Positions 47,278-64,000 of a stretch of DNA of 64,000 nt are shown here, piece by piece (within the stretch, counting starts at the first letter, position 1; each line of letters opens with the position of its first letter). The DNA lies in the NCBI GenBank assembly GCA_963575745.1, contig CAUYUJ010014340.1:167501-231500 (forward strand). Direction: 5' to 3'. The notes under the pieces were generated by a model. It ran no database searches. It saw only the letters and a list, made by a program, of their open reading frames with translations, and was not told the DNA's origin. Source of the DNA: Prorocentrum cordatum (taxonomy: Eukaryota > Sar > Dinophyceae > Prorocentrales > Prorocentraceae). The position numbers and the translations under genes are program-made.

Positions 47278-47309
<32 letters not shown>

Positions 47310-47772
47310 GCATCATCATCATCAGCAGCAGCAGCATCATCATCAGCAGCATCAGCATCAGCATCAGCATCATCATCATCATCATCATCACCATCATCAC
47401 CATCATCAGCATCATCAGCATCATCAGCATCAGCATCAGCATCATCAGCATCAGCATCATCGTCATCAACAACAGCATCATCATTATCAGCAACAGCAAC
47501 AGCAGCCGTCTACTGCGGCCTCCTCCCAGTCACCCTCTGCGTTCCCGTTATATGTCTTCCCGTCATCATCCCCACCTACTCCTGCATCATAGTCGTCATC
47601 ATCATCATCAGCATCATGATCATCATTATCATCATAAGCATAACCATAATCATAATCGTAAACATCAGCAACAGCATCATCATCACCAACATTATCATCA
47701 TTAGCAGCATCATCAGCATCCTCATCATCATCCTCATCCTCATCCTCATCATCCTTGTCATCATCATCCTTG

Positions 47773-47829
<57 letters not shown>

Positions 47830-47887
47830 CGATCATCATCACCATCATCATCAGTATCGTCATCGGAATCTTCATCGTCATCGTCAG

Positions 47888-47919
<32 letters not shown>

Positions 47920-47932
47920 CCATCATGAGGCC
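47277..47932. repeat. (TCA)n microsatellite
   Basis: About 650 bp of TCA/CATCAG repeats with one GC-rich break near 47505-47590. Ser, Ile, His, Asp and Met homopolymer frames are artefacts. Confidence 0.95.
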
Positions 47933-48249: not shown

Positions 48250-48657
48250 AGCCCCCAGAGCACTCCAGGGGAGGGCCATTTAGTCGAAAACAAGCTGGTA
48301 AGCTTAGGTATGTAGTCCGCCTTAGGCGCTCCCATATCCCAGGCTTTGGCTCATATCGCATGAGCAAGAGAGCGAGACGAAGCATGGGATCTGGAGTAAA
48401 GAGTAGGATGGGCATCGTCAATGGAAAAGGGATTTTCCGATCTCTGATGCAAGTAGTGCGCCTCGGTGAGGCACAGTCACATATTAGGCCGGGCCCGGCT
48501 TGAGCCAGGCACGGCAGCGGTACATGCTCGATTTATACCTCGCCTTTAACCTTCTCCGTTTAAAGTCGGAGGGGGAGGAGACGAGCAGGTACCGCACTTC
48601 TACATTATGCGGAAAAACAGTGCTAAGCAGCAGCGGCTGCCTACAAGGAAAGGGCGC
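48250..48657 (-). other. 3' non-coding end of the large retroelement, possible LTR
   Basis: Unique sequence downstream (minus sense) of RNase H. It contains AGGTATAAAT (48540-48531, minus) that could be a TATA-like box in an LTR. The 5' LTR lies outside the window, so LTR identity cannot be tested here. No polypurine tract stands out. Confidence 0.35.
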
Positions 48658-48670
48658 GCGAGTAGCCTCG

Positions 48671-50070
48671 CTACCGGCGAGTTTCCTCGCTACTAAAGCG
48701 CACCTGCCCGCGGGTTTCCCCGCTGGCTCGGGAGGCAGGGCCGTCCTGAGACGACCTGCCCGCCCTATACGGCGTATGTTTCTTCAGCTCGTGCTTGAAG
48801 GATTGCTGGCCGGCCATTACTTGTAGGAGCAACGCGCGGTCAATACTACCTTTGGTATGGCCATCGGCAGTCATATCCCGCGTGTCACACCATTGGACGC
48901 TTTCCACGATTCCGCGTTCCATCATCTGGCGGATCCAGCTGATGTGCCCAAGCAGAGTACACTCTGTGGGCTTCTTCAGATCCTTGCTAGACAAAGATTT
49001 GAAGACAGACTCGGCATCAATAGTCAGAGTGACTTTGATACATAGACCACCCATTTCCAATATGTTCTTCAACTGTGTGGGGGTCAATGGTCCCGAGTGT
49101 AGCTCGTGGAGCGTTACAATGGTCGGGTAGCAGTCTTCCAAGTTGTGGGCTGCTGCCAGTGTTTCCGCAGAGTAGCTCGAACGCACTTGCAGTCGATGAG
49201 ACTTGCAGTATGCGTCCACCAGGTGCACGACGGGTTTCCCCGCTTGCGTGTGGCCACGCCTCAGCAGGTTAGCCCCGCGGATACCATAGCCTTTGACTTC
49301 GTCGTCTTCATCTCCGTTGAGACGACGATAGCCAGAATCGCTATGCAGGTCGACTTCTCCTGTTGGAGTCATAGCTTGATACACGATCTTCTTCGGACCT
49401 GCCTGCAATTTTCTGGTAACCGCGTTTAGTCGTCGTACCTGGATGTTTGTCGGTTCTTGGATACGTTGTAGTGAGACAACATAGACCATTAGCCATACCT
49501 GCGTGATCAACGCATAGGCTAGAGCGCCACGAAGACTGACGAACATATCAGAAATCGTCTTCGTCGCCTTGCTCTCAGGATCAGCTCCTGTGAGTTCTGG
49601 ATGTGTGATAGGACGAAGCTGTTTGATGTATTCGTCCTGATCGAGAGTGACGCTCCCATCATCGGTCTTGTTGTACCGAACAGCACAGTTTGTGTATGTG
49701 TGTTTGTTCAGTTTGCACTTTCCAAACGTATCCTCAACACACTTGACATACTTGTCAATAGCCTCTTCCTTCCCAGTCATATTGATGTCATCAACGTGCT
49801 TGGCTGTCAAGAGGTTTGGGCTCATCTCGAATTCTTCGTCGTATGAAGTAGGCTGTAGCCCAAAGCTCCTAGTGATGGACCTGAGCTTCAGCGAGAATGC
49901 CCTGGGAGCATCCTTCGTGCCCGTCCCCGGTTTCAGACACCGGAGACAATGCTTTGATTCGTCATATGACTCAAAGCCTGGCAGTGTGCGAAGGACAGCT
50001 GCTGACCCAGGTGGTAGTGTGAAACACACCACGCGTTCTTTCTCGCCCGTTGCCGCGGCGAGCTCGCATA
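48671..50070 (-). CDS. Large element: RT palm to RNase H
   Basis: The frame picks up RT after the first catalytic block (ELAAATGEKERVVCFTLPPG). It carries AKHVDDINMTG (polymerase Asp-Asp, with His in place of the usual Tyr) and RT thumb/connection sequence. RNase H follows with four acids: Asp in DLHSDSGYRR, Glu in SSYSAETLAAAH, Asp in LTIDAESVF, Asp in WCDTRDMTADGHTK. It ends at TAG (48673-48671) with a Ser/Arg-rich tail encoded partly by hairpin copies. RT-RNase H copies element RNA to DNA in virus-like particles. The RT start lies in another frame (50070-50468), so one indel interrupts the enzyme. Confidence 0.88.
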
Positions 50071-50468
50071 GGTCAGTCCCTTCAGGAAAGCCATGTTGAT
50101 GTCCAGGGAAGCGATGATCCAAGCTTTGTTGCATGCAGCAGAACTTGCGAGCAGTCTCTGGCTTGACCTCCTTGCCGTGCCAGAGAAGGTTTCGACATCA
50201 AAGGCTTCAAGGTCCATGAAGCCACGGAGTACCAAGCGTAACCTGATCGTCCTTTCCATTTCGCCCTTTTCGTTCTTGACAAACTTCCATTTGTATACGT
50301 AGCGTGACGTCATGATGTTAGACGCTTTGCTCAAGTCAGTCATCTGGAAGCATTTGTTGTCAAGCCAAGTCTTCAATTCTGTGTAAAGGGCTTTGGAAAC
50401 TTTGACCGGATTTGCTTGGATGTCGGCCTTCGTGAGTAGATCGTCTTCCTTGACGACCACGGCACGTT
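50070..50468 (-). CDS. Large element: RT N-terminal segment
   Basis: VVKEDDLLTKADIQANPVKV, TSRYVYKWKFVKNEKGEMER, RLRLVLRGFMDLEAFDVET and ASLDINMAFLKGLT match copia RT blocks in order: fingers, Arg-Leu-Val-xx-Gly-Phe, and the first catalytic Asp in SLDINMAFLKG. The true joins, judged by family pattern, are at about 50468 (upstream) and 50068 (downstream), each a one-base-type frame change. Confidence 0.85.
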
Positions 50469-52056
50469 TGGAAGCAGCACTACGTATACTCGCATAGTTG
50501 TGACGCTGCTGTCATCCAACAATCGGTGTTGCTGCTCGGACAGGACGACTTTGGACATGTCTGCAGTGAAGCAGAGCTCGATGTACTTCCCGTGCTCATC
50601 GGAGTCCAGATCATATTTGCTATCCGGATCCGTGGAGCATAAAGGAACGTAGTAAGAAGTGTCCATGTCGTATCCTGGCGGGTGACCCCGCTCCGGCAAG
50701 TGGCCTTGCACATCTTCACAGGTCGTAGAGACTAACACACACTGTGTGTCTGTCATGTATGTAGGAACTGTATGCATGACTTCCTCTGTGTCAGCTTCAA
50801 GGAGTGTTCTGTCATCCATCAGTTCAGCATACCACGACTTCAAGACAAAAGCATCCAGATCTTCTTCTGTCTCCTCTATGATGGTCGGGAGCCGACCATC
50901 GTTGTCCGTAGGAGGCTCCTCAGGAGCAGCTGCTGGAGGTGATTCGCTTGGTGGTGGACCATCAGCGAGTTCCTCAAACTTAGTGAGGTCTTGGTCAAAC
51001 CCAGCAGACGGCTTCCTGGATTTAAGACACTGGATGATGCGTGAGTGTGTAGATCCTGTGATGTCGTAGATGTTCAAGGCAGTGCCATCAGCTTCATAGT
51101 AATGAAAGCCAGGGGTCACATCATTATCATAGTGCACTAAAGTACAGCTGTCTGCATAGGGTGCAGCAGGCAACTTCGTCAGGCTCTTAGCAAGTCGTAC
51201 AGCAACAACGTTTTCAATACGAAAGTAGTTGCGTATGAGGTACTGGAGAGCCAAGTGCACTTTAGGCGAAAGTCGGCTCGCAGCAGTCATCTGCAGCCGA
51301 CCCTGTTTCGCTGGTAGATATCCGAAAGTCATGGCGGGTTTCCCCGCTGGCAGACCGGCAATAAAGGCCAATACTGTCCGAAGGGCCGTATTGTCCGATC
51401 CTATCTCGCGGACCATAAGTGCTTCGATGTACAGTGTGTGTCGTGTGTCAGGATACTGTACTCGCACTTCGCGATTGCCGACCTTCACGATGACCTGGCC
51501 TCGGTCAGGTTCGTTGCGGATGACCGGGTATGGACCACTCCATCCACCCCAGTCGTCTTTCGTGGTGGTCGGGCGATGATAGTCCACGAGATCTCCCTCT
51601 TTATAGTGAAATTCACCCGTAGCAGTAGTCTTTGTACGGAGAGCCCTGTTCGTCTTGGCAACCGCAGTGGCCTGCGTGATTGCCTCCAGACTAACCCTCC
51701 TGATTGTTTCCTCCCTTGAGTGATCTGATGATTCAGTGGGCTGATCATGATCCAAGACAGGGAAATCGGGAAGCATAGCTGGTTGTCTGCCATACAGCGC
51801 ATTGTACGGAGACACTTCATTGTAGAAGGTAAATGCGTTGCTGGCAAACAAGGCTTCATGTAAGAGACGAGTGAAATTGAGAGGGATATTTAATCTATTC
51901 AATTCTTCTCCCATCACGTGTAGGAGGTGTCGCAGGATGCCGTTCCTAGCTTCGATAGTTGTAGCGTGTTGGCCACGCGCTCGAATACGAAGCTCTGTTC
52001 CCTTAGCCTTAAGGATGGCCTTTGCTGTATCATTATTCAGTGCTCCTTCCCCATCG
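50373..52056 (-). CDS. Large element: integrase C-terminal half and linker
   Basis: In this frame SDGEGAL (second catalytic Asp, codon at 52055-52053) and TTIEARNGILRH (catalytic Glu at 51953-51951) are separated by 33 residues. The integrase C-terminal region follows (FYNEVSPYNALYGRQP; DWGGWSGPYPVIRN as an SH3-like segment). A ~300-residue acidic, Pro-rich linker then leads to RT. The linker contains LPERGHPPGYD, where a hairpin copy is read in a different frame from elsewhere. The first Asp lies in the preceding frame. Confidence 0.85.
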
Positions 52057-53640
52057 GAGTATAGATTTTAGCAGGGCCATGCTGCATCCAAGTCGTATGA
52101 TAGGCATCGAGAACAGTATGCATAGCTTTATCAGGAATCTCTGTGCCAGCTGCCCAGCGAATACAACGGTCGATGATGTGAAAAACAATATGTTCCTGTT
52201 TATAAAAGAAAAGATCACATTCGACTTCCTCGTTGAAACGTCCTGGCAGTGACACAGAAGGCATCACCGTGTTGCCTGGTTTGTCCCAGGCTCGACATTC
52301 TCTACACGAGTCACAAATGCCTTTGATCAGACTCAAACGGGTTTCACCCAGACCAACCTTGGTTAGAATCATCCGCATTTTTGGCTCCTTGGCATGAAAC
52401 CATCTCAGGTGGAGTTTGCGGAGTTCTCGCTGCACTACAGCTGGGTCGAAGCTGCGCAGGTTTTGGAGGCTGAGCTGAACGTCGAAGCGAGTCCAATCAG
52501 GGAGCCTTGGCCTTGGCCTCGGCTCTGCTTGAGGCTGCGGCGGTGGTGGAGGATCTCCTCCCTCCATGCGTCCGCGCCTTGCTGCAACTTGTGGCAGTCT
52601 ACGGTGATCGTCAGAGCTGCCAGCACCACTGTTGCCACCATTAGCCCCGTCAGCTCTGGTGATGTCATGGCTGCTGGCGCCTGCGGTTGGATCGCCCTCA
52701 CCAGGCCGTGGCGGCCGAGGCGCGCGTATGCGCGCTCTTGCGGCCGGCGCCGCTTTTGCGGCTGGCGCCGCTTCTGCGGCTGGAGCCGCTTCCGCGGCTG
52801 GCGCCGCAGGAGCGGCTTGCCCCGCCGGGCGCGGCTGGCCAAAGTTATCTGGCAGCTTCCATTTTTCGGCGAATCTGCATTGGCCAGATATCTTGGTGTG
52901 GTGAGGATTGCTCTTCTGATATTCCTTCTTACAGCTTGGACAGTCCCAGTAATACGGTTCAACATCATACCACCGACACATCTTCGGATCCCTACTGTGC
53001 TTTGGTGATTGCTTGTAGTTGTTGTCCACACAGCCAGGGCACCCAAGACCGCCAGGTGGTGGTCGCCAGATTTCTCCGTTTGGGTGTCTCCGGATTGTTG
53101 GGTCGTCCAAGTCGTAGCCAGCACTGTTTGTTACGAACGCATAGCTGCGTTCACGATTCGCGAATGGATCGCGACCGTAAGCAAACAGGTCTTTGGCGAT
53201 TTGCACCGCATCAACGATCAGTGACTGCATTCTGTAGGTATACTGTGCCGCCCTTGCTAGCTCTTTGTTACAAGCATTGGCGTGCACATGATTTCCTGGA
53301 CAACGCTTGCCTCTGAAAGGTGCCAACAACTCTTCTTTATTTGCCATTATCTGTGTTGGCTTGCGGATGTATTGTCCAAATGAATCTTTGAGACCAGTCG
53401 TGCACTGATCAATGATTGTTTGGCAAGTGACCTTGCGTTGTGCCAGTTCCTTCCATGGCTGGATCTCATCCACCCACGTGCCCATTGGTTGTTCCCTGAG
53501 AAAGAAACGTCTTAGGTCGTCTTGTAATAGAGCGACTGTTCCACAGAACGTGATATGAGGCAGGTCCTCTTTGTGGTGTTTAAGCCACGTATCATGATTG
53601 ACCTGTGCATTGAAATAGGAAGGGAAGTCCAGTAGTTCTG
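52037..53640 (-). CDS. Large element: end of methyltransferase-like region, spacer, integrase start
   Basis: It opens with SYFNAQVNHDTWLKHHKEDLP and RFFLREQPMGTWVDEIQPW, the continuation of the methyltransferase-like region. A Cys/His cluster follows (KPTQIMANKEELLAPFRGKR, then CPGNHVHANAC; later CPGCVDN and WDCPSCKKEY), then an Ala/Pro linker made of four consecutive hairpin copies (52740-52807). Next are the integrase zinc-binding His/Cys (LHLRWFHAKEPKMRM, CDSCRECRAW) and the first catalytic Asp (EVECDLFFY, codon 52216-52214). The frame stops at TGA after IYTPMGKEH, next to the second Asp in another frame. An indel of one base near 52056 explains the break. Confidence 0.82.
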
Positions 53641-55268
53641 CAGCTTGGCTGCAGAATCGTGATCTTGACAAAGCAAGTCTTGAGGTAGTGGAGGACTGCT
53701 CTTTGTACTTCCGAGTTTCCAAGGTCAACCATAGATATCTTGTCAAGGTTCCCGCCTGACGAGAGTCCCCTCTTGAAGGCTAATATGGATATACCACCCT
53801 TGCCCCCACATAATTCAAGCATGTCCACTTGATTGTTTCTGCCGTAGCATAACGACTGGACTATCGAGAAGACATCAGCATGTGAGTCAGCGGGTTGCCC
53901 CGCCGGTAACATCATGAAGATGTCCTCTGATTCGCTGTCCGAGTCCGAGTCGTCAAGAGGAACGTCGTTGAAATATGTGGAGCAGTCAAGCCCTTTGAGG
54001 TCCTCTCCACAGTCGTCGTTACCGTCTTCCACTTTCTTCGGGACTTTCTTCGGTTTGATGCCGGCTTCTTTGTCAGCTTTCTGCTTTTCTTTCTGTTTTA
54101 TCCTGGCATCAGTGGGCAACGCAGTTTCCGCGGAGAGATCCGCTGCGGAGGAATCCGCTGTAAAATCAGGAAATGGCGGAATTTCAGGAAGGTTGTTGGT
54201 GGGTCGCGTTTGGCAACGCTCAATCGAAGGGGGAGGAGATCGATCGTCGTCGACGATCGTCACACGCTTTGGGCGTGGCCTTCGCGACTCACCATTGCCA
54301 TGAAGAACTGGAGCCGGAGGCTCCCAGTATAGCCGAGTACTGATGTTTGTAACCCCATCAGGTAATGGAGCTACATAGTTGTACCCAGTTGGCTGATCCT
54401 GGATTCTAATGTCTTGAACGATCTTGTTCGTGTCCAGGTCGGTCGTGACCCTACGAACCACATGGTCCCATTGAGGGCCCTTTTGTGGACATTGAACGTA
54501 GTGTCTGACCTTTTTGTCAACGCGTGTACACACACTGAGGTGTACCGCACTCCGCTCATTCCTGATCATGTTGGCTTTATCGAGTTGATCAAGGAAGCGT
54601 GCAATAATAATAGCCAAAGTTTTATACCGAAACTCGGCACGTTGCTGATCTTGGCCATACCAATCCAAATCATGCTCCTTGTGTGATCCACAAGTACATT
54701 TCCATAAGTTTATCGGTATATGAGGACAAGATGTAGCAACTTGTATATAAGAACCACTGGGATATTTACTGGATCGGTCAAACTTAATACCGAAATGACA
54801 GAGTCTGATTCGTATAACGCTTAGCTTCAAATCTTCGATAACATCTTTGATCGGACCCTGTTTCCAGAAATACCCGGGTGGCCCCAGGATAACTATCTGC
54901 ATTCTCAGAGCACGCGCTTTGATCAGGAGATTTTGTATACGTTGATAATGTGGTCCCGCCCTCTTTCCTGGAGTACGCACGTACCAATCAGAGGGTGTGG
55001 CCACCCACAACATATTGTAGTCTCCTGCCAACAAATTTCCCAAATACTGTGTTCCAGTTGAAGTCATTACCTCATTATGGGTAATCCGGTCGCATATATA
55101 TCCACGGGTTCGGAGTTCAGCGCAAGCTGTGCGAATATCTTCGATGACGAGGCATTTTGAATGATATTTTTCTTCTCGGGCCTCAGCGCGGCCAACGTAT
55201 GTCGCGAGGAGGCCGGTATTCGGCTTCTCTTCGCAAGCGAGCGCCGCCGGCGCGCCCGCCTGCCCCCG
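53592..55268 (-). CDS. Large element: methyltransferase-like region, N-terminal part
   Basis: The frame is continuous with the protease ORF except for one TGA (55271-55269). The first ATG (55067) reads MTSTGTQYLGNLLAGDYNML. Two blocks stand out: LWVATPSDWYVRTPGKRAGP with VILGPPGYFWK, and DMLELCGGKGGIS with MVDLGNSEVQRAVLHYL and TILQPSCRTTGL. The second looks like a Rossmann methyltransferase: Gly-rich motif I, acidic end of strand 2, and a Pro-Ser-Cys where cytosine-C5 enzymes have Pro-Cys. Related regions sit before integrase in other dinoflagellate copia elements as far as I recall. No enzymatic function is proven. The frame changes at about 53630. Confidence 0.6.
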   Translation of the reverse strand, partial: RGQAGAPAALACEEKPNTGLLATYVGRAEAREEKYHSKCLVIEDIRTACAELRTRGYICDRITHNEVMTSTGTQYLGNLLAGDYNMLWVATPSDWYVRTPGKRAGPHYQRIQNLLIKARALRMQIVILGPPGYFWKQGPIKDVIEDLKLSVIRIRLCHFGIKFDRSSKYPSGSYIQVATSCPHIPINLWKCTCGSHKEHDLDWYGQDQQRAEFRYKTLAIIIARFLDQLDKANMIRNERSAVHLSVCTRVDKKVRHYVQCPQKGPQWDHVVRRVTTDLDTNKIVQDIRIQDQPTGYNYVAPLPDGVTNISTRLYWEPPAPVLHGNGESRRPRPKRVTIVDDDRSPPPSIERCQTRPTNNLPEIPPFPDFTADSSAADLSAETALPTDARIKQKEKQKADKEAGIKPKKVPKKVEDGNDDCGEDLKGLDCSTYFNDVPLDDSDSDSESEDIFMMLPAGQPADSHADVFSIVQSLCYGRNNQVDMLELCGGKGGISILAFKRGLSSGGNLDKISMVDLGNSEVQRAVLHYLKTCFVKITILQPSCRTTGLPFLFQCTGQS

Positions 55269-55271
55269 TCA
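55269..55271 (-). promoter_or_regulatory. In-frame UGA-C stop, candidate readthrough site
   Basis: CTC TGA CGG lies between the protease ORF and the downstream ORF in the same frame. UGA followed by CGG is one of the known leaky stop contexts in plant-virus readthrough. Very GC-rich, self-complementary sequence (GGCGGGCGCGCCGGCGGCGC) follows within 20 nt, and a hairpin copy (55301-55288) lies just upstream. It could instead be a nonsense mutation. Confidence 0.45.
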
Positions 55272-57868
55272 GAGGGGCATGCTGTTAGCGGATGGCTCCG
55301 CAGGAGTCACTGGTGCGGCTACGCTCACAGTCTCCACGCGGGTTGGCCCCGCAGAGTCCGACGAACCTCCGCCCGTGCAGCTTGGTGGTGGTGGCGGTGT
55401 CGCGGGTGACCCCGCTTGGTTCTCAGGCGTCCACTTATTCACCGCCTCCTGGACTGCCCAGAATATCTTAGACTTCAGGGCATCCTTCATGTGTGGCCAG
55501 GTCCCTTCAGGACACTGTTGGCCTTCCCACCAGCTGTTCAGCGTCCTGTCCACGATCGCACGGGTCGTGTCTTCCAGGAGCTGCTTGTCGAGATACGGCT
55601 CGACAATGTACGCATCAGTCGTAACGGTCAGGGACTGTCCCATTGCGGGTTGCCCCGCTGTGGTCTCGGCGGGTGGCCCCGCACTAACCCCGGCGGGTGA
55701 CCCCGCATTGACGGAGTCCTCGTCGTTCTCCGTCTCGGTGTAGCCATCACGACTACTGCGGATTGTAAAGGTGTTCGTGACCGTCTGGCTTTTAGCCCCG
55801 TCATACAACCCGCATGGAATGGCTAGATGTCCTGAGGGGGTTTTCTTCGCCCTCAGGACCTTGGCGCCCTTCCCCAGCTTAAGAGTATAATCTCCGCTGG
55901 GGAAGATAACCTTCTGGAAGCCTGGCTTCAGCACGATGATTGTGTCACGTGCTTCCATGGCGCCCAGGCCCCAGATGGCTGGGAGGTTTGCACCTGAGCC
56001 CTCTGCGATGTTGGAAGCATACTCCTCGATGCGGGGGCTTGCCTCATTGGCGTATTGCACCCCGATCTTGAAGTTGCCCATTTTCCGACAGATCGCAGCA
56101 CCCTCACCGACACCGTTGATGTAGAGGGTTTTGCTCAGTGTGCATATGGCCGGTCTGTGATTGTACCTGGCCATAACCTCCTGGAAGGTTCGTGCTGTAT
56201 TAGCTCCGATGATGTTCACGTTGGAGCCAATGTCTAGCATGAACGATATGCAGGGCATTCCGTCTTCGTCGGGGAAGAATGTCCCTGTCCGCGCCGCCAG
56301 AGCCATCGTACCATGGTCATCAGTATGGTACGTAATCTGTGAACCGAGCGTGCCTTTCAGTAGGCGTTGTTCCAGCACCCACTGGCTCATTGTTAGCTCG
56401 GTGCACCATATTTGCTCATATTGGCGGCGCTCCTCCACGGTAATTGGTTCCTGTTCAAGAACCCAATAATTCGCAGAGAGTGTGGAGGTCCACTCACCTC
56501 CTGGCGGAAGCGTATCCGTGACGTCACGTGTGTAGGTCAGCCCTTCCGTGTTGATCATGAAGGTATTGTGGAATTGGGCTGCCTCCGCGCTTTCAGCACT
56601 GGCCCGGCTTCTAGCGCTTACCGGGCTCTCTACACGTGAGGTTCTGGATCCGCCTCCGCTCCTGCCACTCCGCCTAATATTGGCCTCCATTGCCCTCAGA
56701 AATCCCGGATTCGGAGGTCCATTTGCGGGTGACCCCGCTTTGGCGGCAGGAGCCGCTTCGGCGGGTGGCCCCGCTTTGGCGGCGGGAGTCGCTTCGGCGG
56801 GTGGCCCCGCTGCTGGGGGCCCCTGTGCTCGAAGCGTAGACAGGATCGGCATCTGGATGCCTTGCTCTGGCGCTGGCCAGGGGTGTGTCTGTGCAGCTGG
56901 GGCACGTGCGGATGGCTCCGCCGAGGCGGCTCGAGCCTCTAGTGCCTCCACTGCTTCCCGCAGCCGACGCAGTTCCCGAGCATCCACCACGTATCTTTCC
57001 TGCTGGCGCGCCTGTTCCGACTCAGCGTCGCGCTGTCCAGCATACGGGAAATGTGCTGTGATTATGCCCGGCCCACGACATACAGCGCAGGGTGCCTCGT
57101 TTGGCGCACCTGGCCGCTGATTGCGGACGTGCTGCTGTGCAACACGATCCCAGCATATATCGTGGAAGAAGTGCCCGCACGCCAGTCTCCACACCGTGGT
57201 GCCCATCTCGTAGGGGTCCATACAGATTGGGCACTGTGTGAAGTTGTAGTCTGAAATGACTGGAGTAGGCACGTCGGGGCGAGTCCGAGCCTGACGCTCG
57301 AAAGTAGTTTCGCCCTCCCGATATGGCGTCGGTGGCGGCAGTCTATCTGTCCGTTCAGCGGGTGGCCCCGCGTCTGCGGGTGTCCCCGCTTGGTTTTCAC
57401 GCTCGATCCTTCTCTGGATCGCGCGCTGTTGGCGCAGCCTAGCGTTGTCCCGAGCCTGCTGCCTAGATGCCAGTATCGCTTGCTGCGTGTTGTGCACGTC
57501 GCGGATGTAGTCTGGCATGCTGCCCAGAGCGGCTGGCACCGCGAGACCAGCTGGCTGAACTACGGTCTCGGGGTCCGTCGGCGTGGGCATGTAGGCGTAG
57601 TGCGGCATAGACTGCGCATCGACTGCTCGTGTAAACTGCAAACGAAACATCTCATTGGCCAGATTCCGAGTGTATTCGTTCGCAGGTGGCCCCGCAATCA
57701 TAGGAGTGTTATTCATCTGCGCGTAGTACTCCGGGTACATCGGCGCGTCCATGGCCTGTGCCTCTGCTGGTCCATGATTGTCCCATCCATATATTGGGTG
57801 TGATGCTATTCCTGGAATAAACACCTGTCGATATGGATTCGTGGGATCAGCATTTGGAGCATCTCAGA
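55272..57868 (-). CDS. Large element: RING-H2 finger and retropepsin-like ORF
   Basis: From the GTG at 57824 the frame gives 851 residues; it is open back to about 57868. Residues 198-249 form a RING-H2 finger: CPIC, then C-x-H-xx-H-xx-C, 21 residues, then CAVC. Residues about 525-545 read FMLDIGSNVNIIG, a retropepsin-type active site with Asp-Ile-Gly in place of the usual Asp-Thr/Ser-Gly. A second strand (ATICGLGAMEA-like context and VIFPSGDYTLKLG) follows. Many AGPPA/AGSPA segments are hairpin copies. RING fingers commonly act as E3 ubiquitin ligases; this is unusual in a retrotransposon. The ORF overlaps the Gag frame by 62 nt in the -1 phase. Confidence 0.8.
57078..57233 (-). other. RING-H2 zinc finger domain
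   Basis: Cys198-x2-Cys201, 14 residues, Cys-x-His-x2-His-x2-Cys, 21 residues, Cys-x2-Cys249 (numbered from GTG 57824). All eight ligands are present, with LACGHFFHDICW at the centre. This cross-brace order is the RING-H2 class. Confidence 0.88.
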
Positions 57869-60800
57869 AGTCCAGCTCCAGAGAGGCCGAAAGTCGCCAT
57901 GATTCGTAACATCTATGTTGCGGTTCCGCAACAGGCTGGGCACTCTATCAGCTTGTTGCTGCAAAAAGGTAGCCTGTGCTCTCAAGTTGGCTGCCCGACG
58001 TTCGTAGTCTGAACCTTGTTGTCCGTCAGCGGGTGGCCCCGCATGTGCGGATGACTCCGCAGGCGTTCGCTCGGCGGGTGACCCCGCAGCCACTCCTCCT
58101 TCACTGCCCCTCGGAGTGCCAAAGGGAGTGGTTGCCTGGAGTGCCGCTGCGAGCGCCGGATTCCCGCGAATCGCCTGGAGTCTTTGCCACAAGCTGTTTT
58201 CGCTCGTTTCAGACGGCGGAGTCCGAAACGGCGAGCCACCATCTGAGCCGCCCATAGGAGCAAACCTCGCAACTCCAGCTTGCTGTGGAGGGCGTTGTGG
58301 TTGTGGTCCTAGGACGCCTGGTGGCCCCGCAGGAGGGCGCAGGTTCCTCTGCTGCGCGTCTTGGATACCTGCATGCACCGCCCACGGGTCAGCACGGTAT
58401 AGCTGATCGGTCAGTCCAGAAACGTCGGCTGATGTCAAATGGCTGTTGAGAGCGTGGACCCAGGACTGCTGGTCCGGCCTCCAAGGAGATGCTACCGTCG
58501 CCACCGGTGTGACTACTTGCTGCCATGAACCGTCCGAGGTGCCTACCGCGGGTGTCCCCGCTCCTGCGGGTGGCCCCGCCTCAGGCATGACCTCGTCCTC
58601 CTGGGCATTCATCATGAGGACTGTCTGTGTGTCGTACGGTCGTGGAGCAACATCTTGCTCGGTCATGACCAAATTGAATGGACGACCGTCCGTCTTAGCC
58701 CAGCCCTTGAGGTACATGGCGTGGTCTTCCATTACCGCCACAGTTCTGTCACACATTTTAAGTGGCAGATAGTCATCAGTGCGAATCCTGTCCGCGGGTT
58801 GGCCCCGCCTCCGCGACTTGTCATAGAACAGCGGATTGCTCCAGGCTTCGCCGACCCGATATTTCGCAATGCTCACTATCTGGAGGATATGATCGGGCGG
58901 TATACGTCCGTCGTGGCCCCGTGTCATGACTATGTCATTTGCTGATCTCCATAGAGAGAAGCCACTGGACAGCATCTTGTTGATGCTGCAGAATATGAGC
59001 ACCTCCGAGTCAGGACGGATGCCCGATTGAATCCTCGGGTCGCCCGGGAGGTAGGGGCAGCCATGCACAAATTGGCGCCCCCCCTTCCTCTTCGGGTTGT
59101 CCTGTGCGAGGCATGAAAGGCCATTAGCAAGAATGTCCTTGACATACTCCCACTGTGTCCCGTGGATGAAATATACTGGGTCGTCTGGTTCTTTCATCCA
59201 TGTTGTGATCGGCTTGTACAGCGACTCGGGACAGTGGATGCCTGGACTGCTGTGGCCGTTCGTGGCTCTGATGAAGTACTGTGGCCTGCGTGCCGTTGGT
59301 CGAAACCTGGGAGGCAGCAGCATGCTGTCATCAACGCACTTCATCTGGAGCCTGCCCTTCTGCATGCCGTGATGGTCAATCATCTCACAGCAGTTTAGCA
59401 GCACCCAATACACGAATGACGCGTGGGGCCTGCCTTTGATCAGCACCTCGTGCATTTCACGATAGTACTTATACTGATCATTTTCAGTCCAGTTTGTCAG
59501 CAGATCGTCAACGACAACCCAGCCATCGTATGGATCAAAAGTGCTGACCTTTTCGAAGTATCGGTTATGTTTGTCCTTATAATATGGACTGTGGCGTAGA
59601 GCCGTTGAAAACCACATCGACACCTTGGTCATCTGCTCTTTACTCGGCAAGGTTGGATCCATGCCGTTCTGTGTCATGACCTTCAGGAGTGCTTCTTTAT
59701 GCTGCGCAGCGCGTAGTGGCGGCCTGTCTCGCAGCATGTTTCCCACGGTCTGTTGTTCACGTTCCCAGTCGTTGTGGCACTTGAAATTACGACGAACCGG
59801 ACAATTAATGACTTCGTATCGGTCCGTATCGTCTGGAGTGACTCGTGGGTTTATGGTGCGCTTCGGGCCCTTGCCGACAATGCCTTGCCAGTATTCGATG
59901 GCTCCCAAAGGGATGTTCCTGAGAACAGACATTATTGGCTGCCCTTGTGCGGGTGGCCCCGCTAGTGCAGCCGGCGGCGCTTTAGCGGGTGGCCCCGCTA
60001 ATGCAGCTGGCGCCGCTTTAACGGGTGGCCCTCCAGAACCTGCGGCTGACGAGGCAGCTCCTGCGGATGACTCCGCGCCAGGGTTAGGGTGACCTTTGTC
60101 AGCAGCTGCATCATCGGTTAGTTTCTGTTGGTCGCCAAACTCTTTGAGGACTCTGAAGCGTTCTTCTCTTGAGAGAGTGCCTTCTGCGGGTGTCCCCGCT
60201 GCTACGGCTGGCGCCGCTTTAGCGGGTGGCCCCGCAGAGCCCTTGTCCTCCTTAGCCTTGGCGGCCGCTTCTGCCCGCACCGACCTCATCCCAGCTTCGG
60301 GCTTTGGTTGCGCTTTCATTCGTGCCGAACCTGGTCGTGGTGCAAGGCGCGGCTGATGCAGAGTTGGAGTCCAATCACCTCGGAAAGCTGCCTTAGGCTT
60401 GTCGCGAGCTTCGTCCTTGACATCGCCTTGGGCCACCGGCGGCATCGGGGTCGATGGTCCAGCAAAAGCCTTCTTCCTCTCTGTCACGGACAGACCAGGA
60501 GGATCTGCCGGCTCAGGGTCGTCCGTCTTGGCGATCCCTCTGACCTTCGCCCGCCCCTGTGTGCCTTCGGGGCTCTTGGACGGGTGCCTTTTCGCAGGAG
60601 TCGGTGAAGACGAGGAGTCGGCTTTAGGTCTTGGCGGTGGTCTGCTGCTCTTGCCTGGTCGTGGACCAGGAGGGTCTCTAGGAGGGCCTTCTGGCTGGCC
60701 ATGATCATGGATGACCTGCCTCATCTGGTCGATGTCGGCAGTACCCTTTATGGCCAGCTTGTACTTGCCATTCTCATGGCGGTAGAGTACCCTCGTGCAG

Positions 60801-63800
60801 AACCACTTCTGCGCCGAAGAGCTGTAGTACCAGCAGGCGCTTCCGTCAGGGAATGGATTCTCTGAACCGTCTTCCGCCGCCCACTCTTCATTTAGCTCGG
60901 TGCGGTCAGTGCCGGCGGCGGACCCGGCAGCAGAGGCAACGTCTATCCACTCGTCCGCAGATCCAGCGGCTGGTGCTGCTTCTGCGGGTGACCCCGCTTC
61001 CTTGCTGGGTGACCCCGCTTCCTTACTGGATTCTGCGGGTGACCCCGCTTCCTTACTGGATTCTGCGGGTGACCCCGCTTCCTTATGGAATCGGCGGTTC
61101 CATTCCTTGAGGCGGTGGTCATTGGGAAGCTTTGCCCAATTTTCCCTGACGGTGTTGGCCACCTCTTCGGTCATAGGGACGCGATCGGCCTCTGTGATGC
61201 GCTTTCCTCCTCCAGGAACCTCTTTGTTCGGATCATGGACGTTACCCGCGTCGTCTCCATGAGACCAATTCCACGGGGTCTCTCCATGGTGAGGGCTCCT
61301 GGAGGGGCGGTCCATCGGACACCTGCGCATGTGGCCTTTGAAGGGCTCACACTGACATACTTGTTTTCTGTATGTTTTGCGGTCAGTGATGATCTCCTGC
61401 TTCTTCGCCCTTTTGTCCCAGGCCTCTGGCGTCTTGGTCTTGCCACCCTTGGTACGGATTATCGCGCCAGTTTCGTCCCTTTTGGTGCAGTATTCCTTAG
61501 AATACCAATGCCGAAGAGTATCCATAGAGTAACCGGGGTACCATCTGACGTACCAATCCGGCACCTGCTGAGCAGATACTCCAACGGAGTGCTCAGTACT
61601 GTATGGATAGCCCGCTTCATCATGCGTAGGGCGTCTAGGAGCTGAGCGGCTCCTTCCGCGGGCTGGCCCCGCTGACGCACTACCACGTGTCATTGGCCTT
61701 TGATCGTCATGCTCTGAGTCTCGGGGAGGCGACGGTCGCCTGTCCCTCTTGGCGTAACGCATGTCCTCCGAGTCCTCTGAGCTGTCCTGGACCATGAACA
61801 CGTTTTGATAAGGGCTTCTGAAGTATCCGATGTCATTTAACTGCTCCATCGAGAGGTCGTTAATGTTCATTTGATCACAACCTTGCATGAATACGTCCAT
61901 AGACCAAGCGGGTGGCCCCGCTGTTGTGTCTGGCATCTCTTCAGCGGGTGACCCCGCTAGAGCTTGGAGTGCTGTAAGCATCTGTGATGCTGACATGTTC
62001 GAATCCAAGTATGGACGTAGACGGGCAACTCCTGGGTGTGACAGCAGTTCGTTCATCGTCATCTGCTGCTGTGCTGGCGCACTCAAGAGTCGAATTGCTT
62101 CTGAAACCTGTCCTTGGAGCATGTCGTTATAATCTTCTTCGGATTCTTCGGAATCGGAATACGCGGGATGGCCCCGCATTTCGTCATCGGCGTCTCCCAT
62201 CTCCGAACCAGCCCACGACGGATTTGGCAGCAACGGCATGCCAATCACTTGTGGGGCCAGCACGGCTGTGAGTTCTTCCTCTGTTGCCGGGACGGTCTCG
62301 GCTTCGGAGACCTCGTCACCGGCGGGTGGCCCCGCTGGAAGACCGAACCAAGCATTGTACGCGATCTCATCGACCTCGTCCCAGCCGTGGAACTCGTCGA
62401 AGAGGGTCACTGCGTAGTCTTCCAGGGCCACAGTTGCTTCAGCATAGCGGGCCATCACGTAATACGTGGAGGAGCCCGCAGCGGGAGCCGCTTCTGGATT
62501 GACGTAAAACTCGTAGTCAATGTAATCTATGTCATCCATAAAAGAATTTTGAGCCAAGTGTACGGATCCCTTTCCTTTCCCCTTCGGGCATTGATCGCGC
62601 AAATGCTCTGTGCTACCGCATGTATGACACTTCATAGTATTACCAGAAGCGTCCCTAGGGTTGCCCCTCCGCCCCTTTCCCTTACCGGAGGTCCGCCTGT
62701 GACCCCGACCTTTGCCTCCGATAAGAACTTCTTCAAAAGCCATATCAGTTAAGGACGTGAGGAAAGCAGTAATACCCCTACCATGCATACGGCGTCTGCG
62801 ACCCCCTTTACCACGACCCTTTCCAAATTGTTTGAAATGTCGGCGTACTGCACGTCTCACCTTTCTGACTGGTTTCTTCATAAAGCGCCTCCAACGGCGT
62901 TTTGATTTGCGATAAGCCATAAAGGCGGCTTCCGCCCTTTGCTGTTCAGAAAGGTGAGTGTCATCCGCTGGATAGTCATTACCAGCAGAGACTATTCCAT
63001 TGTGCTCATCGTCAGATGAGGTATCTGTGTCAGTGCCAGATTCAAACGGTGAGGGTGGCTGAGACCATTGAGCGGATGACTCCGCTTGGCCCCAGAGGGT
63101 TGTGCCCGAGGGCGGGCTTGCAGTGTAGGCGGCGCCTGGCGAGTAGTTCGACCAGGCGTTCGCCTCAGCTGCCTCTGCCGATGCCTGGCCGGTCTGCCCT
63201 AGAAGGGCAGTGGCCTCGTTGGGCATATCGGCTGGGTCAGCCCAGGGATTTGGCTCGCCAGGACCAGCGGGTGACCCCGCAGTCGTGGCGTAGACACCTG
63301 CATGTGAGTGGTGCCCTGTGAAGATACCCGCTATGTTACCAGGAGAGCGCTCGGCAACATGTCCGTAGTTCCTCATCCTGGTCAACAGCCTGTCATAGTC
63401 TGCTTGTGTTCGGGGCATCTGATGATTGAAGGGCTCAAGCAGGTGTTGGGCTCGTGACGCGCCAACGCCTAACGCTCTGAAGAGAATCAGCGTTAGGATC
63501 TGAAAGTTGGGGATGACAAAGCCAACAGAGTTAGCCTCGTCACGGGCCATCTCGAATCGAGCTAATACTGAGTCGATTCGCTCGCCCCTTTCGACGCGGA
63601 AGTCGATAAGGGCCGTGCCAGAGTTGAGCTGGCGCTCATCTTCCAGATTTTCAAATTTGGTGCTCAGTAAGTACAGTATGTAGGTTACTGCATCCGTTGG
63701 CTGTCCATTGACAGTTACACCATAATTGATGATCTGGGAGGGGACCTGCATGGCGATACGACGAGCCAGACCTTGAAGGCCTCGTTGTAGTGCTGCAGCT

Positions 63801-64000
63801 TGTTGTGGTGGTGTCATATTGCCGCTCGTTACGTTTAACCATGCATGTACTTCGCGAACGTATTCGCGGAAAGGCGTAGTACCGGCAGGGTCCCATGAAG
63901 GGCCAGTAGTACGCGTGTCGTCCATCCCCTGCCGCATGTATCCCACAGCACATCCCATTATCACCCATAGAATGCCGAAGATAGTTATCTTGATCCAATG
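57806..64000 (-). CDS. Large element: Gag-type polyprotein with Tpt1-like domain
   Basis: The frame is open to the window edge. Counting from the GTG at 63964 it has 2052 codons, though MDDTRTTG (about residue 14) or an upstream codon may be the start. Residues ~20-230 resemble copia Gag (FREYVREVHAWLNV, FRVERGERIDSVLARFEMA, LLTRMRNYGH). A basic Gly/Arg region holds a CCHC knuckle at 446-459. Then come acidic and Cys-containing segments, a long Ala/Pro/Glu linker full of hairpin-encoded AGSPA, and a Tpt1/KptA-like domain at ~1445-1705. A Gln/Pro-rich tail ends at TAG. No stop or frameshift interrupts 6.1 kb, implying recent activity or constraint. Confidence 0.85.
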   Translation of the reverse strand, partial: HWIKITIFGILWVIMGCAVGYMRQGMDDTRTTGPSWDPAGTTPFREYVREVHAWLNVTSGNMTPPQQAAALQRGLQGLARRIAMQVPSQIINYGVTVNGQPTDAVTYILYLLSTKFENLEDERQLNSGTALIDFRVERGERIDSVLARFEMARDEANSVGFVIPNFQILTLILFRALGVGASRAQHLLEPFNHQMPRTQADYDRLLTRMRNYGHVAERSPGNIAGIFTGHHSHAGVYATTAGSPAGPGEPNPWADPADMPNEATALLGQTGQASAEAAEANAWSNYSPGAAYTASPPSGTTLWGQAESSAQWSQPPSPFESGTDTDTSSDDEHNGIVSAGNDYPADDTHLSEQQRAEAAFMAYRKSKRRWRRFMKKPVRKVRRAVRRHFKQFGKGRGKGGRRRRMHGRGITAFLTSLTDMAFEEVLIGGKGRGHRRTSGKGKGRRGNPRDASGNTMKCHTCGSTEHLRDQCPKGKGKGSVHLAQNSFMDDIDYIDYEFYVNPEAAPAAGSSTYYVMARYAEATVALEDYAVTLFDEFHGWDEVDEIAYNAWFGLPAGPPAGDEVSEAETVPATEEELTAVLAPQVIGMPLLPNPSWAGSEMGDADDEMRGHPAYSDSEESEEDYNDMLQGQVSEAIRLLSAPAQQQMTMNELLSHPGVARLRPYLDSNMSASQMLTALQALAGSPAEEMPDTTAGPPAWSMDVFMQGCDQMNINDLSMEQLNDIGYFRSPYQNVFMVQDSSEDSEDMRYAKRDRRPSPPRDSEHDDQRPMTRGSASAGPARGRSRSAPRRPTHDEAGYPYSTEHSVGVSAQQVPDWYVRWYPGYSMDTLRHWYSKEYCTKRDETGAIIRTKGGKTKTPEAWDKRAKKQEIITDRKTYRKQVCQCEPFKGHMRRCPMDRPSRSPHHGETPWNWSHGDDAGNVHDPNKEVPGGGKRITEADRVPMTEEVANTVRENWAKLPNDHRLKEWNRRFHKEAGSPAESSKEAGSPAESSKEAGSPSKEAGSPAEAAPAAGSADEWIDVASAAGSAAGTDRTELNEEWAAEDGSENPFPDGSACWYYSSSAQKWFCTRVLYRHENGKYKLAIKGTADIDQMRQVIHDHGQPEGPPRDPPGPRPGKSSRPPPRPKADSSSSPTPAKRHPSKSPEGTQGRAKVRGIAKTDDPEPADPPGLSVTERKKAFAGPSTPMPPVAQGDVKDEARDKPKAAFRGDWTPTLHQPRLAPRPGSARMKAQPKPEAGMRSVRAEAAAKAKEDKGSAGPPAKAAPAVAAGTPAEGTLSREERFRVLKEFGDQQKLTDDAAADKGHPNPGAESSAGAASSAAGSGGPPVKAAPAALAGPPAKAPPAALAGPPAQGQPIMSVLRNIPLGAIEYWQGIVGKGPKRTINPRVTPDDTDRYEVINCPVRRNFKCHNDWEREQQTVGNMLRDRPPLRAAQHKEALLKVMTQNGMDPTLPSKEQMTKVSMWFSTALRHSPYYKDKHNRYFEKVSTFDPYDGWVVVDDLLTNWTENDQYKYYREMHEVLIKGRPHASFVYWVLLNCCEMIDHHGMQKGRLQMKCVDDSMLLPPRFRPTARRPQYFIRATNGHSSPGIHCPESLYKPITTWMKEPDDPVYFIHGTQWEYVKDILANGLSCLAQDNPKRKGGRQFVHGCPYLPGDPRIQSGIRPDSEVLIFCSINKMLSSGFSLWRSANDIVMTRGHDGRIPPDHILQIVSIAKYRVGEAWSNPLFYDKSRRRGQPADRIRTDDYLPLKMCDRTVAVMEDHAMYLKGWAKTDGRPFNLVMTEQDVAPRPYDTQTVLMMNAQEDEVMPEAGPPAGAGTPAVGTSDGSWQQVVTPVATVASPWRPDQQSWVHALNSHLTSADVSGLTDQLYRADPWAVHAGIQDAQQRNLRPPAGPPGVLGPQPQRPPQQAGVARFAPMGGSDGGSPFRTPPSETSENSLWQRLQAIRGNPALAAALQATTPFGTPRGSEGGVAAGSPAERTPAESSAHAGPPADGQQGSDYERRAANLRAQATFLQQQADRVPSLLRNRNIDVTNHGDFRPLWSWTSEMLQMLIPRIHIDRCLFQE
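58850..59635 (-). other. Tpt1/KptA-like RNA 2'-phosphotransferase domain
   Basis: TALRHSPY (Arg1457, His1458), then DPYDGWVVVDDLL, KGRLQMK, QYFIRATNGHS (Arg1566), VYFIHGTQWEYVKDILANGL, VHGCPY, SEVLIFCSINKML, SLWRSANDIVMT (Arg1673) and IPPDHI. These follow Tpt1 family motifs in order, including the Arg-His-Arg-Arg tetrad essential in yeast Tpt1. Spacings between tetrad positions (108 and 107) are longer than in stand-alone enzymes, so the domain has insertions. Tpt1 removes an internal 2'-phosphate from RNA using NAD+; some homologues ADP-ribosylate RNA or DNA ends. Confidence 0.85.
62588..62629 (-). other. Gag CCHC zinc knuckle
   Basis: CHTCGSTEHLRDQC: Cys-x2-Cys-x4-His-x4-Cys at residues 446-459, in a Lys/Gly/Arg-rich context (GKGRRGNPRD before, PKGKGKGS after). 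Such knuckles bind element RNA during packaging. Confidence 0.95.

Follow-up and report, generated by a model that had tools for sequence, protein, structure and literature searches.

Tpt1 strips internal 2'-phosphates from RNA using nicotinamide adenine dinucleotide (NAD+; PMC6333775), and the locus described here raises the question of what such an enzyme might be doing inside a retrotransposon. The locus lies in a 64,000-nucleotide stretch of Prorocentrum cordatum DNA (contig CAUYUJ010014340.1, positions 167,501 to 231,500 of the forward strand), which we call the window and whose numbering we use throughout. A sequence-only reading of this stretch had proposed a Tpt1/KptA domain inside a retrotransposon Gag protein at 58850..59635, with no strand given. 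We find the domain in that place, on the minus strand and with a match to Pfam family PF01885, and we are nearly certain that it is a true Tpt1/KptA domain of a P. cordatum retrotransposon.

A Tpt1 domain on the Gag side of a retrotransposon polyprotein

The PF01885 match (E 5.8e-16, 59.5 bits against a cut-off of 26) takes in profile positions 5-177 of 177 and residues 1459-1695 of the encoding frame (window 58916-59626). The whole domain spans 58886-59653 within a minus-strand frame that is open for 2064 codons (57806-64000); plus-strand frame 1 has stops across the same coordinates. A sequence search of the PDB finds human TRPT1 (7yw3, E 2.4e-13), and all 21 PDB matches at E <= 1e-3 that Foldseek returns for an AlphaFold2 model of the domain are Tpt1/KptA, as are the top 18 rows by Z (8.4-12.4) for a second, trimmed model, both models being of moderate confidence (mean predicted local distance difference test, pLDDT, 66.6 and 63.7). 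NCBIfam profiles gave only weak partial matches, far below cut-off. Profile and fold, on which the sequence-only reading had offered in part to be judged, agree on Tpt1. The element domain and cellular Tpt1/TRPT1 (PF01885) have in common a two-lobe architecture (a winged-helix RNA lobe and an NAD+ lobe of the ADP-ribosyltransferase type), an R-H-R-R tetrad, an HGT motif and an SGxR motif. The nearest solved structures are human and mouse TRPT1. The element domain differs in sitting within a Gag-side polyprotein and in sequence: NQGHS and SANGVI of human TRPT1 correspond to TNGHS and SANDIV in the element.

How complete is the active site? In the C. thermocellum enzyme the tetrad is R18, H19, R68 and R121 (PMC6333775). 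In our alignment R68 falls in a KxR[FY] motif and R121 in GRxxVH, so that the window tetrad is R1469, H1470, R1550 (in QKGRLQ) and R1642 (in GGRQFVH). All four residues are present, as is the HGT motif that contacts NAD+. The earlier claim that the four catalytic positions are kept is thus right as to the positions and half right as to the residues: its numbers run 12 lower than ours, so that Arg1457, His1458, Arg1566 and Arg1673 correspond to 1469, 1470, 1578 and 1685, and the first two are tetrad members whereas the last two, the arginines of IRAT and WRSAN, lie outside it. We had ourselves considered that the fourth catalytic arginine was lost in family B, a second Tpt1-carrying family of this genome (the window's own element family being family A). 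This candidate is withdrawn because it rested on taking the WRSAN arginine as part of the tetrad, which the structure paper and the alignment put elsewhere; at the WRSAN position 40 family B copies have Trp (38), Cys (1) or Leu (1), and mouse TRPT1 likewise has Cys.

The carrier is a long terminal repeat (LTR) retrotransposon with a copia-type reverse transcriptase, and not a typical copia member (Table 1). From LTR end to LTR end it measures 16,378 bp (48282 to 64659, in coordinates extended past the window edge), and its two LTRs show no difference (blastn, 100% over 286). The bases AAAT stand directly outside both LTRs as a 4-bp target-site duplication, the chance of such agreement being 1/256 for any four bases; in the Ty1/copia group the duplication is usually 5 bp. 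The LTRs begin with GACTTT and end with CGACT, not TG...CA, and on the coding strand the tract that precedes the 3' LTR is rich in pyrimidines, not in purines, which is why we confine the copia label to the reverse transcriptase. Directly adjoining the 5' LTR is TGGTAGCGGAGC, which resembles the complement of the 3' end of an initiator methionine tRNA (tRNA-iMet) and is a candidate primer-binding site. The reading order is Gag with a CCHC zinc knuckle, Tpt1, a RING finger, a protease motif and, further on, the reverse transcriptase domain RVT_2, the remainder of which matches in another frame (48671-50197) at 14 bits, below the cut-off. A Pfam scan of the element frames gave neither integrase, expected between protease and reverse transcriptase, nor RNase H, expected after the latter; by eye there are putative motifs for both.

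This layout narrows the proposal of a Tpt1 domain inside Gag. The domain does belong to the Gag-side polyprotein, but as a module of its own, some 1000 residues past the zinc knuckle of Gag and ahead of the RING finger and protease, and not to Gag proper. The broader proposal, that a mobile element carries a Tpt1 with an intact active site, is upheld by the Pfam match, the fold, the LTR pair and the tetrad. The window copy itself is broken, by a frame change between open reading frames (ORFs) 1 and 2 and by further interruptions downstream: the LTRs are identical, yet there are several frame breaks in 48671-57863 (minus strand), with ORF1 upstream open for more than 2000 codons. Lesions predating the insertion, mobilisation in trans and assembly errors are all possible explanations of these breaks. 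The RING finger, which lies between Tpt1 and protease here and in the relative P0002 described below, is a possible candidate for an element-encoded ubiquitin ligase.

Table 1. Features of the Tpt1-carrying element, in window coordinates
Feature	Position	Strand	Remarks
3' LTR	48282..48567	-	286 bp, identical to 5' LTR
RVT_2 reverse transcriptase, start	50077..50358	-	33.3 bits against cut-off 31.6, E 4.9e-8
ORF2, 864 codons: RING and aspartic-protease motif	55269..57863	-	continues Gag-Tpt1 polyprotein after frame break
Protease motif LDIGSNVN	56214..56237	-	putative, by motif; no Pfam model matched
RING finger	57072..57233	-	PF13923 2e-7, PF13639 2.9e-7
ORF1 from first Met: Gag, zinc knuckle, linkers, Tpt1	57806..63958	-	open to window edge and beyond
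Tpt1 C-terminal (NAD+) lobe	58886..59275	-	residues 1576-1705; HGT 1613-1615, R1642, H1646
Tpt1 N-terminal (RNA) lobe	59276..59653	-	residues 1450-1575; R1469-H1470 at 59591-59596, R1550 at 59351-59353
CCHC zinc knuckle of Gag	62582..62632	-	17.1 bits, under cut-off 20.8
5' LTR	64374-64659	-	286 bp; extended window coordinates, just beyond window edge

Copies, relatives and constraint

Is the window copy an isolated case? In the assembly (4,128,499,153 bases searched), the window domain as query finds at least 141 family A copies (the best 141 of 4568 candidates), all of which cover at least residues 1-271 of 273 at 92-100% identity, four of them with a stop. A search with PF01885 gives a best 150 of 2877 candidates, all above cut-off; seven of these (L001-L007) look like cellular Tpt1, and six of the other 143 have a stop in the match. 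Family B is represented by the 40 of these 143 that we fetched (L008, L010-L048). Tpt1 is found in every one; the RING finger could be followed in a single frame over at least 85% of its length in 38 of the 40, and the protease in 34. L018, a family B copy, has Tpt1 followed by RING and then by protease, and its NAD lobe, the one compared, is identical to that of the window at 44 of 128 residues (~34%). The cellular-type Tpt1 genes of this genome are of several kinds (L001-L007), and two of them, L005 and L006, share one 316-residue frame, which lies on opposite strands in their two contigs.

A further sample was selected through the protease (window protease DNA as query, best 40 of 707 candidates, the window's copy included) and consists of very young copies only. 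All 40 have Tpt1, 35 of them without stop or frameshift; 37 have it at full length about 2.5-2.6 kb upstream on the same strand (two of the 37 with a stop), and in the other three, which we fetched, it is present with a one-base gap each. An identical 501-base protease stretch recurs in at least 39 copies, the window copy being one of them, from which we conclude that family A is recent, and it is recently active; either a very recent burst or gene conversion is a possible origin of the identical stretches. Longer frames than that of the window exist elsewhere: 37 of the 141 listed family A rows have 3043-3148 codons, two of them with a stop within the match, and in the PF01885 list nine rows reach 2940-2943 codons, one of the nine with such a stop. 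Judging by their length and by P0002, these frames would run from Gag to protease. In the window a TGA at 55269 ends ORF2 after the protease; a few copies are open for 4201-4482 codons, and some may read on towards Pol.

Outside the window, protein searches for relatives were made with the family A query only. P0002, a protein of 1627 residues from an ENA contig of 5678 bases, has Tpt1, RING and protease motif in one frame and is collinear with ORF1 1301-2043 and ORF2 5-744. Its identity to the window is 75/130 in the NAD lobe, 48/118 in the RNA lobe, 33/64 in the RING finger and 66/161 in the protease, so that among the four parts measured conservation is highest in the NAD lobe. A search from P0002 returned itself only, and a scan of IMG/VR with the domain alignment gave 58 pattern stretches and no relative. 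The 20 relatives from the domain search comprise 12 Pyramimonas fragments (EukProt), six ENA/JGI contigs and two P. cordatum gene models; public P. cordatum proteins match the domain at up to 99% over part of its length. The fragments filed under Pyramimonas (P0006, P0011, P0012, P0014, P0015, P0017-P0021, P0023 and P0024) may be the alga's own or come from a dinoflagellate in the culture. P0007, P0022 and P0024 have downstream text (SDGSW..., AGxPA) in common with the element, as judged by eye, which places these three in an element too.

An 18-row tree places the element domains of families A and B together, apart from the five cellular-type Tpt1 rows of the same genome that were included (96/94), with a warning from the program that long branches meet. 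One old capture of Tpt1 would be the simplest reading of this tree, not a proven one. The P. cordatum models P0004, P0010 and P0016 jump from the Tpt1 N-lobe to the protease; at the matching points the window reads, by eye, GT...AG or GC...AG, which makes predicted introns a likelier explanation than deletions. The gene models P0003, P0004 and P0005 fuse element pieces with unrelated sequence and carry unrelated names (1,3-beta-glucan synthase, protein-tyrosine-phosphatase), and their annotation is unsafe.

We quantify constraint as the ratio of nonsynonymous to synonymous divergence (dN/dS; Nei-Gojobori, pooled pairs). For family A (20 sequences including the window, 190 pairs) the ratio is 0.11 in the NAD lobe, 0.31 in the RNA lobe and 0.27 over the whole domain. 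For family B it is 0.14 in the NAD lobe, 0.22 in the RNA lobe, 0.10 in the protease and 0.04 in the RING finger, the lowest of six parts measured. Copies with less than 85% of a domain in one frame were dropped, which keeps, of 40 family B copies, 40 for each lobe, 36 for linker A, 38 for the RING finger, 36 for linker B and 34 for the protease; L064 was left out, and with the window as reference most family B domains are lost, this family being too distant. The tetrad residues R, H, R and R are each kept in 20/20 family A sequences, window included, and in the HGT motif H and G are kept in 20/20 and T in 19/20; in family B tetrad and HGT are kept in 40/40. An arginine follows SG in all 20 family A sequences and, by motif mapping, is probably the NAD-phosphate-binding R139 of C. 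thermocellum. These patterns show purifying selection across copies and suggest that Tpt1 is being kept in working order.

What the domain may do

What would a working Tpt1 offer to a retrotransposon? We tentatively prefer a reading that is a serious possibility, if short of probable, namely that Tpt1 acts in the virus-like particle and takes 2'-phosphates off the element RNA or its tRNA primer in an NAD+-dependent manner. Once captured, Tpt1 would have stayed on as a permanent part of the Gag-side polyprotein, between the zinc knuckle on one side and RING finger and protease on the other; the protease would free it, or the polyprotein would carry it, into the particle; and there, with NAD+, it would remove 2'-phosphates from element RNA or tRNA primer, so that the template could be read and the primer extended by reverse transcriptase. 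We favour such a clean-up because a 2'-phosphate on packaged RNA should hinder reverse transcription, and the position of Tpt1 upstream of the protease would fit packaging with Gag.

Several points weigh against the clean-up of 2'-phosphates. The family B linkers have dN/dS values of 0.10 (linker A) and 0.22 (linker B), as low as those of the lobes, and low dN/dS is therefore not special to Tpt1. The family B copy whose NAD lobe we read through, L018, has Asp in place of the arginine after SG. In alignment A3 (20 rows, with P0003-P0005 and P0016 left out) the motif counts fall short, with R1469 in 5/6, R1550 in 11/14, R1642 in 14/17 and H1613 in 12/15, where gaps count as misses, the deficits lie chiefly in Pyramimonas transcript fragments and P0010 is left out of the counts. 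Sampling matters as well, since family B copies were taken according to their Pfam score and family A copies according to how closely their protein resembles that of the window, which lowers dN/dS. This bias is unlikely to make the whole result because in the family B NAD lobe pN is 0.036 against a pS of 0.220; the protease-selected sample and the P0002 comparison are free of any choice by Tpt1 score, though P0002 itself was found via the Tpt1 region. The genome has RtcB matches (8 rows, best 343.7 bits), and RtcB ligation leaves no 2'-phosphate; a genome search for the T4/Trl1-type ligase PF09511 was uninformative, with 0 matches both for the ligase and for its control. Lastly, cellular TRPT1/KptA also ADP-ribosylate 5'-phosphate ends (PMC6582358), so that the reaction cannot be fixed from sequence.

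This last activity opens an alternative that we consider unlikely, in which ADP-ribose would be put on the 5'-phosphate ends of element RNA or complementary DNA and would protect them against exonucleases or sensors. Such modification of 5'-phosphorylated RNA is carried out by human TRPT1 and by a bacterial KptA; TRPT1 extends it to DNA and needs the same tetrad (PMC6582358). The element domain has that tetrad intact, but the activity is known in vitro for cellular homologues only and no element feature points to 5' ends. Rather less likely, the domain might serve counter-defence, undoing a mark or lesion that the host places on foreign RNA, whether a 2'-phosphate or ribonuclease-cleaved ends. 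We know of no such host system in dinoflagellates, where none was searched for, and Pfam finds no RNA ligase or 2H phosphoesterase in the element frames. The RING finger in the same polyprotein hints, on the other hand, at more host-directed functions, and KptA is found in phages and within the polyproteins of a few RNA viruses, where it has been suggested to repair RNA damaged by the host (PMC9503650).

Could the domain instead persist in Gag as a binder of RNA or NAD that has no catalytic role? This would sit well with an RNA lobe that evolves faster than the NAD lobe (0.31 against 0.11 in family A), with linkers that are about equally constrained and with the lack of the SGxR arginine in L018, but the tetrad and HGT are invariant or nearly so and a binder is not obviously in need of all of them, and we judge it improbable. 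The frame breaks of the window copy might even suggest a passenger, that is, a piece of a host gene that a single copy picked up accidentally, or a chimera made during assembly. We regard this as almost certainly wrong, being contradicted by at least 141 copies, by Tpt1 in 40/40 protease-selected copies, by a second family, by the collinear P0002 and by dN/dS well below 1.

How new is such an arrangement? Enzyme capture by retrotransposons is known, and a Tpt1 in a retroelement is new as far as the literature searched goes; in open-licence PMC literature we found no earlier report of Tpt1, KptA or TRPT1 in a retroelement. In Botrylloides leachii nidovirus and Beihai picorna-like virus KptA lies, as here, in the polyprotein of a selfish element, and the same source reports KptA within a few RNA-virus polyproteins and as absent or rare in eukaryotic viruses; its main text has 0 occurrences of 'retrotransposon' or 'retroelement' (PMC9503650). 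Structure matches in BFVD include the nidovirus, Hyperionvirus, Sylvanvirus, a sawfly nucleopolyhedrovirus and Bodo saltans virus. The KptA-carrying RNA viruses and large DNA viruses are, however, viruses, and none is a retroelement. Among retroelements, those of Symbiodinium and Klebsormidium with DNA methyltransferases (DNMTs) also combine a captured enzyme with purifying selection (Ka/Ks < 0.2), but the enzyme is a DNA methyltransferase and the elements are LINE (long interspersed nuclear element), DIRS and Gypsy elements; in dinoflagellates the DNMTs are carried by LINE and DIRS elements, and abundant Copia elements are described without a DNMT domain (PMC5890265). An orchid Ty3/Gypsy element has an N6-methyladenosine (m6A) RNA demethylase, an enzyme of an LTR element that possibly acts on the element's own RNA (PMC9289625), and bdelloid LTR elements have a DEDDy exonuclease or a GDSL esterase as an extra enzyme in ORF3 (PMC5408684). 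These orchid and bdelloid enzymes differ from Tpt1, and the main texts of the two papers have 0 occurrences of 'phosphotransferase'. Should the activity of the element Tpt1 be borne out, the implication would be that retrotransposition in some hosts is limited by 2'-phosphates or by 5'-phosphate ends on RNA; the element would then also be a natural system for the role of Tpt1 in taxa without a fungal-type ligase, a role that has been called not obvious (PMC6333775).

The hairpin array and other features of the element

The coding strand of the element (minus strand, 48282-64000 within the window) carries 61 instances of the pattern GCnnn-GNNA-nnnGC, a pattern that fixes two outer pairs and leaves only three inner pairs free. 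All three inner pairs are Watson-Crick in 45 of the 61, and six more hairpins on this strand are paired with wobble. The antisense strand has 11 instances, of which 2 are paired. The 48.3-kb left flank has 20 on one strand (0 paired) and 25 on the other (1 paired), the 7.3-kb right flank has 3 and 2 (0 paired on either), and seven cellular Tpt1 loci have 16 and 5 (1 paired on each). The 40 family B copies have 686 instances on the coding strand, 565 of them paired, and 65 on the other strand, none paired; these copies are related, and the counts are not independent events. Their stems vary yet stay paired (AGG/CCT, GGG/CCC, TGG/CCA, GAG/CTC, CGG/CCG and more). Synonymous shuffling of five family B pieces gives means of 1.1-1.3 (maximum 4) against 14-15 observed, and for ORF1 it gives 0.07 exact and 0.85 GNNA hairpins against 15 and 20 observed. 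The exact GCGGG...CCCGC type is absent from 58579-59949, the stretch that holds the Tpt1 domain, and in the window ORFs 26 of 29 AGxPA are encoded by identical codons.

On these counts the array looks like an RNA-level signal, perhaps for packaging. One can imagine a link to Tpt1, in which NAD+-dependent RNA processing by the element's Tpt1 would be required for replication and the array would be its substrate or a packaging code, for example as cut-and-reseal sites that leave 2'-phosphates to be cleared before reverse transcription; we consider this very unlikely.

Two further observations concern the element and its surroundings. The frame that follows the protease (53592-55268, minus strand) holds ELCGGKGGISILAF, which by eye resembles the beginning of a DNA methyltransferase, where S-adenosylmethionine binds; no Pfam match to this frame rose above cut-off. 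Within about 1 kb outside the two element ends lie similar tandem-repeat arrays in opposite orientation, at 47278-47926 of the window and at 1006-1497 of L009.

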